Below are positions 47,504-63,449 of a DNA stretch of 64,000 nt, piece by piece. Made by a program: the position numbers and the translations under genes. The DNA is from Halichondria panicea. Taxonomy: Eukaryota > Porifera > Demospongiae > Suberitida > Halichondriidae. Positions within the stretch are counted from its first letter, which is position 1, and every line of letters begins with the position of its first letter. The notes beneath the pieces are model-generated. The model had not been told where the DNA came from and did no database searches. It worked only from the letters and a program-made list of their open reading frames with translations. The stretch lies in the NCBI RefSeq assembly GCF_963675165.1, contig NC_087377.1:11022632-11086631 (forward strand), read 5' to 3'.

Positions 47504-50500
47504 ATGAAGTTAAGACTTCTTCTCCTATGGACTGTGCTTTCCTTCTCTGGAAATAGTGCACTAGCACAGACAGTTCCTACTGCTGTCCTCAGCCCAGAAG
47601 GCTTCAATGCAAGTCTAGGATCCACTGTCACCTTCACTTGCATCATTAATGGCACAGAGGATGTTCTGTGGATAGTAGACGGAATCTCAGATCCCACAGT
47701 GCAACGTCAGAGGGGGATTACTCAAAACAGTACAGTTGGACAACCTGACGGAAGTTTTATCTCTCGCATTCATATTTCATCCACAATGGAGAATAATGGT
47801 ATTGAGATTTTATGCCGTGCAATAGGGATGTTCAATGGACAAAGCGAAACAGTCACTCTATTGATCCAAGGACCGCTGAGCTCACCAACACCTCTCAATA
47901 TTTTGGACTCAGGGGGATCTACGCAGAGATTGAGCTGGACACCACAACCAACAATAGACCTCACCGATATCCATCCAGACGTCAGCTACAATGTTTGCTC
48001 TTCAATCTTGAATGAGGTGTCTTGCAATGATTTCCAAGGAACAGAATTGTTATTTGTAAACGTCAGAATTGGGATTGAGTTTTCTGTTGCCGCAGTTAAT
48101 GTGCTTGGTGAAAGCAATGCTAGCACTATCAATCATGAGCCTTGTGACTCTACAACAGGTGAGTGCGTGTATGTGCAAACAGTTCATCTTCTATAATTAT
48201 ATAATTATGATGAATGTTCGTTGACCTCTCAATGTGTATAGCACCTACTCAAGTTGATGGAGATGTTGTTACAAGTGATACGTCTCTGCAATCTAGTGGG
48301 ACTACTCCTTCTGTTACTTTCTCCTTTGAAAAAGTGAGTCATTACTATTTACTACCGTATATACCCCTTTACTGGTCAAATTGTTACAACAACAAGCTGG
48401 GAGGGAGCGTGCTATCAACTTGTGTCACTGAATGTTGCATGATATTGGATTCTGTGGTAGATTGGATAGTATCATGAATGCGATTATTTTAAAGTTTTGC
48501 TGAGCTGTTCAATTAGGTTTAAAACCAGCTATACAGCATGTATATAGGACTGAGTAGTATCCATTGGTAAGACCCTCGGAATATCTTGGTAGCCATAGAA
48601 TATTTTCAAAGAGGAAGGCACTTCGCAAGTGGACACAAGCACTACAATAGTTTATACATGCTTGCTAAGCAGCTTAGTTGACCAGAGTGCAGCTTTTAAA
48701 GTTAAAGGCCACATATGCTTCCATCGAGGCAGCAGCAAGGCATAAAATCGTTAGTTTGTGCTAAGCCATAGCCACTTCATTGGGGGCGGCGATAAAATCA
48801 AGCTAATTATTTTGGTGGGTTGGGCTCAGATGCAAACTAAAGTGATGGAACTGTTTCATATTGTGCAATTGACCTGGAAAAGGGATACCCTCACGAAAAC
48901 ACACCCACCATTTTCTGCAGGCTTAATAGGGAACTGCATGGGCGTATAATTATGAACGGCAAGTTTCACTCGAATATACGCCCACCCGTGGCCTCAAATC
49001 GAGACTTACACTTTTGGCTATGATAATTGCTTATTGTGTTACATACCATGTGACACTGCACAGAGGAGGTACGACAGGCACGGTGCATGCAGCTCTAGTA
49101 ATTATATATTCTCTGATTGTAGTGGCGGATCCAGTGGGGGCTTGAGCACCCCCTGGCTTTGATGACAAGCCTGGAATCTAGAGCTATATATAGCTATTTA
49201 CTCACTGCAACACGGTTACATTATATCACGACCCATGGAGGAGGTACGATAGGCGCTGTGCAGCTCAAGCAATTAACCTTTGATTGAGCAATAATTGTCC
49301 ACCCACGTCGTATTTTTTTGCTGAGAGTAATCAAAGGCTAATTACTTGAGCTGCACCGCACCTGTCGGACCTCCTCTGATCACGATCCAATTATTGATGA
49401 GTCAACAAAATTAATTACCTTTTTAGCTCCCCCCCTTTCAAGATTCCTGGATCTGCAATAATTATCCGCATTTAAATACTTAGTACATGATTGTAGATCT
49501 GCAGTTGCTTCTATCCTTGAAGATCATTATTCATCAAGCCATCAGATAAGGCGTCTGTTTCTATTAAGCTCCTTTGTAACATTATAATACTAATAGTTTT
49601 GAGCGAAAGCAAAACATGCATGGCGAGAGGCATTAGCACAGCGCAGCTTGCAGCACTCGCTATAGATAATTATAGTGAAATTATGATAATGTGTGTGCAG
49701 GGAAGTGGAGATTCCAACTGTTATAACCTGTATCGGATTGAAGCATCACCGTCCAATCAAGGCACTCCCCTCACCCAGGGACCAATGTTCCCAACAGTGA
49801 GTGGAGGGGGGGACATTTCTGTTAGTGTGACTTCTGGCCTTGTGAGAAACACGGTCTACAGCGTCAACATTGTATCAGTGAACGTCAATGGAGAAAATTC
49901 CTCAATGGGAGACATACAATTCAGTAAGTCAAGTCAGAGTCATCTGCTCACGCTATATAAGTGAATTATTTATTGACACAATTGGTGTACCGTATTTACT
50001 TGATTAAACACCCTCCTTGAATAAACGCCCATCTCGTTTAAACGCCTAGGGTAAAAGCTCTGTCTTTGTCAATAAACGCCCATCTTAAATAATCGCCCAT
50101 ATATGGGGCGTGGCACTGTGGGTGGAGCTGAAATAGCACATGGAACCCAGTTGCAAGCATGGCAGCATAGAATAATAATACTTTTTATGATGCATCGATG
50201 GCAGAGAGGGAGATACCGACACAGAGGGCACTCCTATGACTTAATTTTTAAGCTGAGAAATAGATTTAAGCTGAGACAGCAACCCAAGAAGAGCACAATA
50301 ACTGCTGCTGTGCAAGAGTTTTGGAGTAGACATAACAATAAACGCCCTCCTCGTTTAAACGCCCCCTCTAAAGACTTTGATCTGAAATAAACGCCCGGGC
50401 GTTTAATCAAGTAAATACAGTATATATAGATTACTGCATGCATGTAAATGTACATTTGTCACATGTGCATGTATATAATCAGTACTTGAACAACAGCTAT

Positions 50501-62500: not shown

Positions 62501-63449
62501 ATACTTAAAGCTGGTCATTTCATACTTAAAGCTGGTTATTACTCAGTAATTCTACTATACAGGTGCCTATGATGTTCAGTCTATTCAGAGTTCTATTCGC
62601 TCTGGGACTATAGCCGTCACATGCAGTTTCACAATTGGGTCAGTGGCAAGTAGTTGTATTGTAAGGATATGTGAGGTTATCAATGGAAACGTATCGATGA
62701 TGTGCCAAGATCTCCCTGTTCCGAGAAATCTTTCCGCTTCTGAAACAACTCAAGAGCTCAATGGTGTACAGCCAGGTGTCTATGCGATTGTAGGTGTCAC
62801 AGTGAATAGTGGTGGGGAAATGATTCCTTTCACTAGTGGAGATTTGAGGTTCCTTCAACTTCAGAGCATTGACTTCACAGGTGGTAAGTTAATTATACTT
62901 GCATGCATATTAACTTTGTGGGAATGTATTAGTTGTGCTTGCATGCATGTGACTGTATGAGGGGGGAATTATCGTGAATGATTATGCTAAGTGAACACTC
63001 ATTCTATTTATTTTTTCAAGAACTGCTGAGCTCTCCAACACGTCTCAATATTTCCGACTCCGAGGAATCTATTCGAAGATTGAGCTGGACACCACCACCA
63101 ACACTATACCTGATCGGTATCATCAGCTACAATGTTTGCTCTTCAATCTTGAATGAGGTGTCTTGCAATGATGTCCAAGGAACAGAATTATCATTTTTAA
63201 ACATCAGAATTGGGATTGAGTTTTCTGTTGCCGCAGTTAATGTGGTTGGTGAAGGCAATGCTAGCACTATCAATCATGAGCCTTGTGACTCTACAACAGG
63301 TGAGTTCATTCATTTTCTACAGTCATGTATAGACTTTTGATTGACCTCTCAATGTAGCACCTACTCAAGTTGATGGAGATTTTGTTACAAGTGATATCTC
63401 TCTGCAATCTAGTGGGACTACTCCCTCTGTTACTTTCTCCTTTGGAAAA
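47504..63449 (+). CDS. Large modular receptor: Ig plus repeated FN3 / FN3-like / unassigned-domain cassettes (3' end outside window)
   Basis: Fourteen exons: 47504-48158, 48242-48333, 49701-49923, 51127-51447, 51589-51861, 51936-52027, 52918-53140, 56429-56752, 56863-57144, 57248-57339, 58485-58707, 62563-62883, 63021-63299, 63358-63449. Every junction is gt-ag and in frame; 1,164 codons so far. ATG 47504 gives signal peptide MKLRLLLLWTVLSFSGNSALA. The Ig-like domain has C46, W56 (LWIVDG) and C103; the first FN3 runs from about 122 to 218. Then the order FN3-like (two exons), unassigned Cys-containing domain, FN3 is repeated. No membrane span or stop is reached; the last exon ends on a gtgagt donor, so at least one more exon must lie downstream. 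The first gene at 40922 has the same plan once. Likely an adhesion or recognition receptor. Confidence 0.85.
49236..49378. repeat. Intronic inverted repeat
   Basis: GAGGAGGTACGATAGGC with CAGCTCAAGCAATTA on the left faces TAATTACTTGAGCTG and CGGACCTCCTC on the right; imperfect 48-base arms. A third, unpaired left-arm copy lies at about 49064. Confidence 0.65.
49990..50420. mobile_element. Pogo-like derivative, CCGTATTTACTTGA family, short copy
   Basis: TA-flanked, 431 bp, same ends as 35768-36728 (right end ATACAG instead of ATACGG). Retains HSYDLIFKLRNRF and TITAAVQEF in a plus-strand frame. Confidence 0.8.
52451..52873. mobile_element. MITE, CAGTA(TA)GACTCTCG family, in intron b-c of cassette 2
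   Basis: TA-flanked; CAGTATAGACTCTCG and CGAGAGTCTATACTG ends, 423 bp, inverted relative to the copies at 58745 and 61956. Confidence 0.82.
54038..56250. repeat. Second, interrupted copy of the 27.9-28.6 kb repeat block
   Basis: Shared pieces: GCCTCTACACAGGCTCTCC (54040), GGGTGAAAATGAGCGTGGGC (about 54510), GATTGTGGGCTACATATC (about 55844), CGCGATTTCCCAAACCAGGC (about 55888) and GGCCTTGGAACGAGGC (about 56235). The equivalent order at 27880-28640 is compact. Confidence 0.65.
56004..56181. mobile_element. MITE, CCGTATA family, short copy
   Basis: TA-flanked, 178 bp; CCGTATAGCGAGTAATTTCG and CGAAAATTACCCGCTATATA with CGG ends. Same family as 22992-23261. Confidence 0.83.
58745..59168. mobile_element. 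MITE, GACTCTCG family
   Basis: CAGTAGACTCTCGCTATTCC at the left; ATTAACGAGAGTCTAG at the right, slightly decayed; 424 bp. Confidence 0.75.
59660..59691. repeat. Perfect 13-bp stem, 6-base loop
   Basis: CTTGATCCTCCTC, ATTGTC, GAGGAGGATCAAG. In the middle of an intron; no poly-T run follows. Confidence 0.75.
59875..60215 (-). pseudogene. hAT-type (DUF4371) transposase remnant
   Basis: From about 60215 the minus strand reads FQNIRFLAHKGRALRSGDGD then ILHLQGIDCTDIEKYMSSLE, closely resembling the QNIRFLARQGLALRGxGD motif of DUF4371/TTF-type hAT-derived proteins. The frame continues to a stop at 59875 in a part I do not recognise. No upstream or downstream transposase parts are visible. Confidence 0.55.
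60728..60931. mobile_element. Palindromic MITE with 48-base arms
   Basis: TATAAGCTCTATTTAAGGCG, CCACATTAAAAT, ATTACGCTGGTAAA at the left and the complement at the right; 204 bp. Confidence 0.85.
61132..61291. mobile_element. Palindromic element, TTAGAACACA family
   Basis: TTAGAACACACCTAGCCA ... AGTGTTTTAAT against ATTAAAACAC ... TGGTTAGATGTGTTCTAA; 160 bp with a GC-rich centre (TCGAGG / CTCGAGG). Confidence 0.7.
61956..62388. mobile_element. MITE, GACTCTCG family, best-preserved copy
   Basis: TA-flanked, 433 bp; CAGTAGACTCTCGCTATTCC and CGAGAGTCTACTG. Ends 175 bases before exon d of cassette 3. Confidence 0.85.

Follow-up and report, generated by a model that had tools for sequence, protein, structure and literature searches.

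The window analysed here is a 64,000-nucleotide (nt) stretch of the sponge Halichondria panicea genome (contig NC_087377.1, positions 11,022,632 to 11,086,631; contig C1 below), and it carries a predicted surface-receptor gene, gene C, that begins with an ATG at 47504 and ends with a TAA at 68294, i.e., 4.3 kb past the window. Positions are those of the whole window, with the same numbering continued past its end ("window-scale"). The window and its neighbours were read together as a 250-kb stretch, and the genome searched comprised 131 Mb in 39 contigs. The predicted gene has 18 exons, with GT/AG borders in 17/17 introns, and encodes 1,427 residues without a stop, in the order of a signal-like start, an immunoglobulin (Ig)-like domain, four blocks of the exons a, b, c and d (each block predicted to form three fibronectin type III (FN3)-like domains), a transmembrane segment, and a short tail. 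The last d exon (d4) extends into a Thr/Pro-rich stalk and is followed by a 39-nt exon and the exon for the transmembrane segment and tail; d1–d3 lack this stalk sequence, which is found in d4 and in the related genes A and D. The features of gene C, and of an older paralogue (gene E) upstream of it, are as follows:

41043..43157, + strand: gene E, older paralogue; Ig-like, a, d and transmembrane/tail pieces, ~35% identical
47504..48158, + strand: exon 1 of gene C, 655 nt; hydrophobic signal-like start, Ig-like domain and a of copy 1 fused in one open frame, GT donor, phase-1 end
47842..47870, + strand: Ig-like coding end, comprising the last strand and the Gln-Gly linker; homologous to the junction introns at their 3′ ends
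48242..48333, + strand: exon b, copy 1; 92 nt, phase 1-0
49701..49923, + strand: exon c, copy 1; 223 nt, phase 0-1
51127..51447, + strand: exon d, copy 1; 321 nt, phase 1-1, FN3 fold predicted
51448..51588, + strand: junction intron 1; nt 21–110 resemble the post-d intron, the last 29 nt resemble Ig coding sequence (24/29)
51589..51861, + strand: exon a, copy 2; 273 nt, phase 1-1, FN3
51936..52027, + strand: exon b, copy 2
52450..52870, + strand: interspersed repeat in the b-c intron of copy 2; at least 41 genome places including the query, the others 74–80% identical
52918..53140, + strand: exon c, copy 2
56429..56752, + strand: exon d, copy 2; 324 nt
56753..56862, + strand: junction intron 2; 3′ end resembles Ig coding sequence across a 2-nt gap, 5′ part weakly like the post-d intron
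56863..57144, + strand: exon a, copy 3; 282 nt
57248..57339, + strand: exon b, copy 3
58485..58707, + strand: exon c, copy 3
62563..62883, + strand: exon d, copy 3; 321 nt
62884..63020, + strand: junction intron 3; Ig-coding match ends 11 nt before the acceptor, with extra T bases after it
63021..63299, + strand: exon a, copy 4; 279 nt
63358..63449, + strand: exon b, copy 4; last gene C exon inside the window
window-scale 66354–66576, + strand: exon c, copy 4; outside the window
window-scale 67556–67921, + strand: exon d, copy 4; outside the window
window-scale 68026–68064 (39 nt) and 68131–68294 (transmembrane segment and tail), + strand: last gene C exons; outside the window

An initial annotation had described the four-exon block as a cassette closed in phase 1, and the open gene model together with exon homology bears this out, giving four in-frame copies of ~300 residues each. 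As it had stated, copies 1–3 lie complete in the window with half of copy 4 (a and b, to 63449), and its exon lengths of 92 nt for b and 223 nt for c recur in 4/4 copies of gene C and also in 3/3 close paralogues (A, B, and D). The boundary phases that it gave for every copy apply to b (1-0), c (0-1), and d (1-1) in 4/4 copies and to a (1-1) in copies 2–4, while a of copy 1 has no acceptor. Class 1-1 modules are hence formed by a in copies 2–4 and, in every copy, by d and by b and c jointly, and not by a of copy 1. Its description of the exons as nearly identical overstated their similarity: between copies, identity ranges over 0.892–0.959 for a, 0.913–0.967 for b, 0.910–0.946 for c, and 0.890–0.912 for d. 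Because the exons of the four copies are 89–97% identical, chance is excluded as the source of the copies.

Gene C belongs to a clustered family. Its close paralogues on the same contig are A (C1:10,915,198), B (C1:10,955,104), and D (C1:11,093,165; window-scale 70534), with one block each in A and D; in gene B, homology search recovered the Ig-like, a, b, and c exons but neither a d exon nor a tail, and this gene is perhaps fragmentary or draws on different exons. The older relatives E (in the window), F (C1:10,763,968), and G (C5:6,941,532) are 32–35% identical to the Ig-like and a sequence (Ig-a) of gene D. A single open exon encodes both the Ig-like domain and a in genes A, B, D, and E and in the first copy of gene C, and the two match without interruption or stop in F and G.

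The joints between the blocks of gene C are built differently. All three d-a introns (junction introns 1–3) contain Ig-coding sequence at their 3′ ends and sequence of the post-d intron in their 5′ parts, the latter clear in junctions 1 and 3 and weak in junction 2. Aligned with the Ig coding end of gene D, the last 45 nt of the three junction introns score 19, 17, and 14, compared with only 5–9 for 19/19 control introns, and 0/5,000 dinucleotide shuffles reached the junction score for each of the three. With plain shuffles, junctions 1 and 2 gave p 0.0002 with each of four Ig exons. Among 32,174 AG sites in the 250 kb, more than 18/29 matches occur only at the four Ig exon ends and at junction 1. 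The Ig-coding match reaches the acceptor in junction 1 and, with its short gap, in junction 2. The 5′ parts score 40, 17.5, and 26.5 against the intron after the last d (p 0.0005, 0.0125, and 0.0005), and within this intron of 104 nt the match of junction 1 spans nt 6–86. The junction acceptor reads CAAG|GA, and Gln-Gly stands at the same point in the single-block genes. In the junctions, 8, 9, and 10 of the 15 bases preceding the acceptor AG are T; the corresponding count is 6 for A, B, and D, and for the Ig exon of gene C itself it is 5. Such an enrichment is what a strengthening acceptor would show.

Given these matches, the block most likely began multiplying by one founding duplication with breakpoints in the Ig exon and the post-d intron, by which ~29 Ig coding bases would have become the 3′ end of an intron and a translated glycine AG|G its acceptor. 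It would have fused the post-d intron, broken close to its 3′ end, with the Ig exon, broken ~29 nt within its coding end. The Gly codon, cut after its first base, would then supply a phase-1 acceptor compatible with the phase-1 donor after d, and since the acceptor splits this codon after base 1, domain a would become a class 1-1 module in the duplicating event itself. The same build in all three joints favours a founding event that happened once and was later copied, and unequal crossing-over would subsequently have taken two copies to four.

Several points weigh against this reading. With plain shuffles, junction 3 gives p 0.0002–0.0014 depending on the Ig exon used, and the match of junction 2 to the post-d intron is the weak one among the three. 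Against the post-stalk intron of gene D, the 5′ parts of the junctions reach p 0.08, 0.06, and 0.0085 only. That the gene C exons are spliced as modelled is something we infer from homology, phase, and GT/AG borders. The tree of d exons alone gives no clade of copies 1–4 and groups copy 2 with gene A at 64/64, and copies 1 and 4 have a common one-residue gap that conflicts with a simple order having copy 1 outside. Finally, among proteins from other public contigs that match the a exons, the distant P0020 and, less clearly, P0027 have residues before the a boundary that are not Ig-like, so an intron at the Ig/a boundary may exist elsewhere, in the distant source of P0020; the sources of both may have an intron, or an array of their own, at the same boundary.

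Age can be gauged from the divergence of the copies. Over 6/6 copy pairs (Jukes-Cantor), synonymous divergence (dS) is 0.110–0.165, nonsynonymous divergence (dN) 0.067–0.084, and dN/dS 0.42–0.74, while the copies differ from paralogues A, B, and D by dS 0.095–0.203. The d exon of gene A, which is frameshifted, was excluded from the codon analysis and the main tree and kept unaltered in nucleotide comparisons. In the main tree, copies 1–4 form one clade (100/99) whose internal order is without support. Copies 2–4 have a common 3–6-residue gap in domain a that is absent from copy 1.

The introns differ far more than the exons. Those between a and b are 63–81% identical between copies and those between d and a 67–75%, in gappy alignments. 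Next to the exons, 19–77 nt of same-place introns align between copies, and the remainder is largely unrelated. The initial annotation's claim of different insertions mostly stands, except that same-strand stretches are shared in the b-c introns: 78 nt at 72% between copies 1 and 2 (the longest same-place match), 71 nt at 66% between copies 1 and 3, 57 nt at 77% between copies 2 and 4, and shorter ones otherwise. The bulk of the inserts is private, which implies that they arrived after the copies separated or replaced shared ones. In the b-c introns of copies 1 and 2, 48890–49010 and 52050–52125 are same-strand pieces of one interspersed repeat (at least 40 places including the query); this stretch may be an old shared insert predating block duplication, or two separate inserts.

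The copies can also be recognised in proteins from other public contigs, compared over the best four rows per match. The d exon matched 13 proteins, 5/13 of which belong to gene C. P0007 corresponds to copy 1 (98.0% over 99 residues), P0005 to copy 2 (98.6% over 142), P0014 to copy 3 (98.9% over 87), and P0010 to copy 4 (100% over 83), the next-best rows for these four being at most 85.2% among the matches listed. P0009 is mixed (91.7% over 84 residues to copy 4 and 91.8% over 61 residues to copy 2), with a copy-2-like stretch of ~17 residues, a possible conversion between copies. The a exons likewise matched 13 proteins, three of them corresponding to gene C copies: P0015 (copy 4), P0016 (copy 2), and P0017 (copy 3). 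The first two are identical to the window and listed as its own; P0017 (94.9% over 59 residues to copy 3 and 94.1% over 51 to copy 4) was placed by eye via its intron-coded end. P0008 was attributed by eye to gene A; it is listed nearest to copy 4, at 77%, because the frame of gene A is broken there. P0003, P0004, P0011, P0012, and P0013 could not be assigned to gene C as alleles. For the matches to the a exons of copies 2 and 3 and the d exon of copy 4, and for P0009 too, the longest contig is each time 299,879 nt, and this shared length, read as one contig, suggests that another haplotype carries copies 2, 3, and 4 together. Finding the four copies as recognisable units beyond a single sequence is evidence against continuing growth, and overall the array looks old and stable, with no support for ongoing growth or length variation in the sequences available.

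A doubtful but possible alternative is concerted evolution, in which gene conversion confined to exons would keep these similar as the introns drift apart. The short introns are indeed more diverged than a dS of 0.11–0.165 would give, which such conversion could explain, and the mosaic P0009 and the star-like tree within gene C point the same way. In a run test for conversion over 78 exon pairs (40,000 permutations, corrected threshold 0.00064), nine pairs fell below 0.05 uncorrected where ~4 are expected, two of them within gene C (copies 2 and 3 in d, 0.0066; copies 3 and 4 in b, 0.021). However, 0/78 pairs passed the correction, the smallest p being 0.00105, the copies have private indels, and the gappy intron alignments make the intron divergence uncertain.

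The initial annotation had proposed recent or ongoing expansion, or conversion confined to exons, as giving a length-variable surface molecule. Under expansion, the array would still gain and lose copies, and the molecule would differ in length among individuals. Tandem blocks 3.7–6.2 kb apart can misalign at meiosis, and the close paralogues have at most one block where gene C has four, but we regard this scenario as improbable: no copy pair falls below dS 0.11, within the range of the copies against the paralogues, same-place introns match no better than the 78-nt stretch above, and other contigs hold a separate match for every one of the four copies.

Still less probable is an old Ig/a intron that was lost in copy 1 and the paralogues, the blocks having recombined through old introns. 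The seemingly non-Ig residues before a in P0020, and weakly in P0027, would fit such an intron, but junctions 1 and 2 resemble Ig coding sequence up to the acceptor and junction 3 to 11 nt short of it, and the fused Ig-a of A, B, D, E, and copy 1, with no stop in F and G, would demand an old loss and a re-gain at the same place. An assembly artefact, with haplotypes or misassembled repeats posing as copies, can be dismissed as very remote: tandem repeats can be misassembled, but every copy pair differs at 3–11% of exon sites, the introns are largely unrelated, and the copy-2, copy-3-like, and copy-4-like sequences occur in matches whose longest contig is of equal length, which would fit a single contig.

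The domains of the gene C product were compared with profiles and predicted models. The FN3 profile matched a of copy 2 with 25.8 bits (cut-off 25) and c of copy 2 alone with 18.7, below the cut-off, and did not match b or d. For d, which the initial annotation had left as an unassigned domain, the predicted model (predicted local distance difference test score 81, predicted template-modelling score 0.72) has an FN3 fold: its 20 best rows by Z (9.2–10.6) are mostly FN3 by title. The Foldseek list is mixed, with Cwp6 first (E 5.8e-4), then PTPRD FN4-6 (template-modelling (TM) score 0.72), and many antibody domains with lower TM scores. A new fold for d was considered and is ruled out on this predicted model. 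Ig profiles stayed under their Pfam cut-offs in exon 1 (Ig_3, 17.5 bits vs. 30, E 0.0059; I-set, 14.2 vs. 23.7), and the predicted Ig-a model matches Ig-FN3 pairs and FN3 pairs at TM scores of 0.29–0.49 only; we call this domain Ig-like, not a proven member of the immunoglobulin superfamily.

The tails differ within the family. Those of A and E contain several tyrosines (NEAY twice, HLYEE/HLYDE), while the tail of gene C departs from the frame of A after LHPNE and ends in NEVHFS, with 0 tyrosines beyond the membrane segment. The tail of gene E (42853–43157) has five tyrosines after the membrane segment, including YDEI-x10-YAEI. The immunoreceptor tyrosine-based activation motif (ITAM), as given in the cited source, is D/ExxYxxL/I x6-8 YxxL/I (PMC2832619); the E tail departs from it in its x10 spacing and in having no acidic residue at −3, and is ITAM-like at most.

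The predicted gene C protein would thus comprise one Ig-like tip, twelve FN3-like domains, one transmembrane helix, and a tyrosine-free tail. Such a protein may serve in adhesion or recognition, its long stalk holding a single tip far from the membrane, with little signalling of its own. That it would keep a tip resembling those of its relatives but not their tail suggests that it works in adhesion, or as a ligand or decoy. More speculatively, a single-step duplication would have made an acceptor from coding sequence, freed an FN3 phase-1 module, and founded the array. The array would then have made one member of a clustered, tyrosine-tailed recognition family into a long-armed protein without a tail, serving its short siblings as counter-receptor or decoy; we consider this extended scenario unlikely as a whole. 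All these functional proposals are read from architecture, which counts against them.

At the search sensitivity used, no other array of such blocks was seen genome-wide. Exon c occurs in seven places, all known already and four of them in gene C; exon d gave seven strong rows (five whole exons and two pieces of the d of gene A) and four weak ones, and Ig-a gave 12 rows. Searches for the d exon in viral and in bacterial and archaeal contigs gave 2 and 56 pattern matches, respectively, 0 of them confirmed, and a d-exon DNA query gave no match in phage records. No such gene family is named in the titles and abstract openings listed by searches of open-licence literature, which does not show it to be unpublished.

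Elsewhere in the family, exon d of gene A (C1:10,920,326–10,920,646) contains a frameshift; P0006, from another source, has the same break, and P0008 reads through in frame, so that either a segregating broken allele or an assembly error is indicated. The transmembrane segment of gene D (window-scale 72157–73309) is unlike those of A, C, and E, and its tail start differs too; ectodomain and tail may have recombined within the family. At window-scale ~−128000 and −86000, chance-level protein matches repeat with the same letters ~42.1 kb apart, a recurrence that hints at a large segmental duplication, which may also have produced A and B. At C1:12,469,829–12,470,553 lie more distant Ig-like and a pieces, with one stop in the Ig match, perhaps a decayed family member.

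Like NCAM, contactin, Dscam, and LAR-type receptors, gene C would combine Ig and FN3 domains in one ectodomain, and these proteins are among the best fold matches of d and Ig-a. However, match identity is low (8–19%), domain number and order differ, and we claim no orthology. With the CEA/CEACAM and PSG genes, as described in the cited reports, the family shares clustered surface-receptor genes, an N-terminal Ig domain, growth by exon duplication, and tyrosine motifs in some members but not in others (PMC2832619, PMC10440875). In contrast to the stalk of the mammalian CEACAM proteins, which those accounts describe as built of Ig A and B domains, that of gene C is FN3-like, and the family does not share the CEACAM stalk. 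We regard CEACAM/PSG as the nearest functional parallel and claim no kinship. CEA contains three A-B repeats.

The closest parallel to the junction introns is from potato, where, according to the cited account, tandem duplication across an exon-intron border created a new intron, part parental intron and part former exon, with RNA-seq support (PMC4974935); the junction introns of gene C appear to be composed in the same way. As described there, the donor was exonic and the acceptor came from the parental intron, whereas gene C is the mirror image, with an acceptor that appears to come from coding sequence. Unlike the potato case, the gene C event would also free a whole domain as a 1-1 module and start an array, and the gene C intron is known from sequence alone. 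A review table, as cited, lists 188 unambiguous events of such tandem duplication (PMC3443670). Under the modularization hypothesis, as outlined in its source, class 1-1 modules arise from introns inserted at glycine AG|G sites (PMC8001218). The gene C domains resemble the modules described there in being extracellular FN3 domains with phase-1 bounds at a glycine AG|G linker; in contrast to the insertion that this hypothesis proposes, the gene C boundary seems to be a product of the duplication itself.

Phase-1 domain bounds are a condition for animal exon shuffling, and how they arose is usually argued from old genes whose traces are gone. In gene C, the source pieces of a putative new phase-1 boundary are still legible, with the acceptor on a glycine AG|G as modularization expects, reached via duplication. 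If transcripts confirm it, this would be a concrete alternative route to intron insertion that is searchable in other genomes, and the family would offer a natural series for stalk-length effects in receptors, with one or four blocks and with tail tyrosines present or absent. Intron gain by tandem duplication is known; what gene C would add to it is an unusually readable variant.

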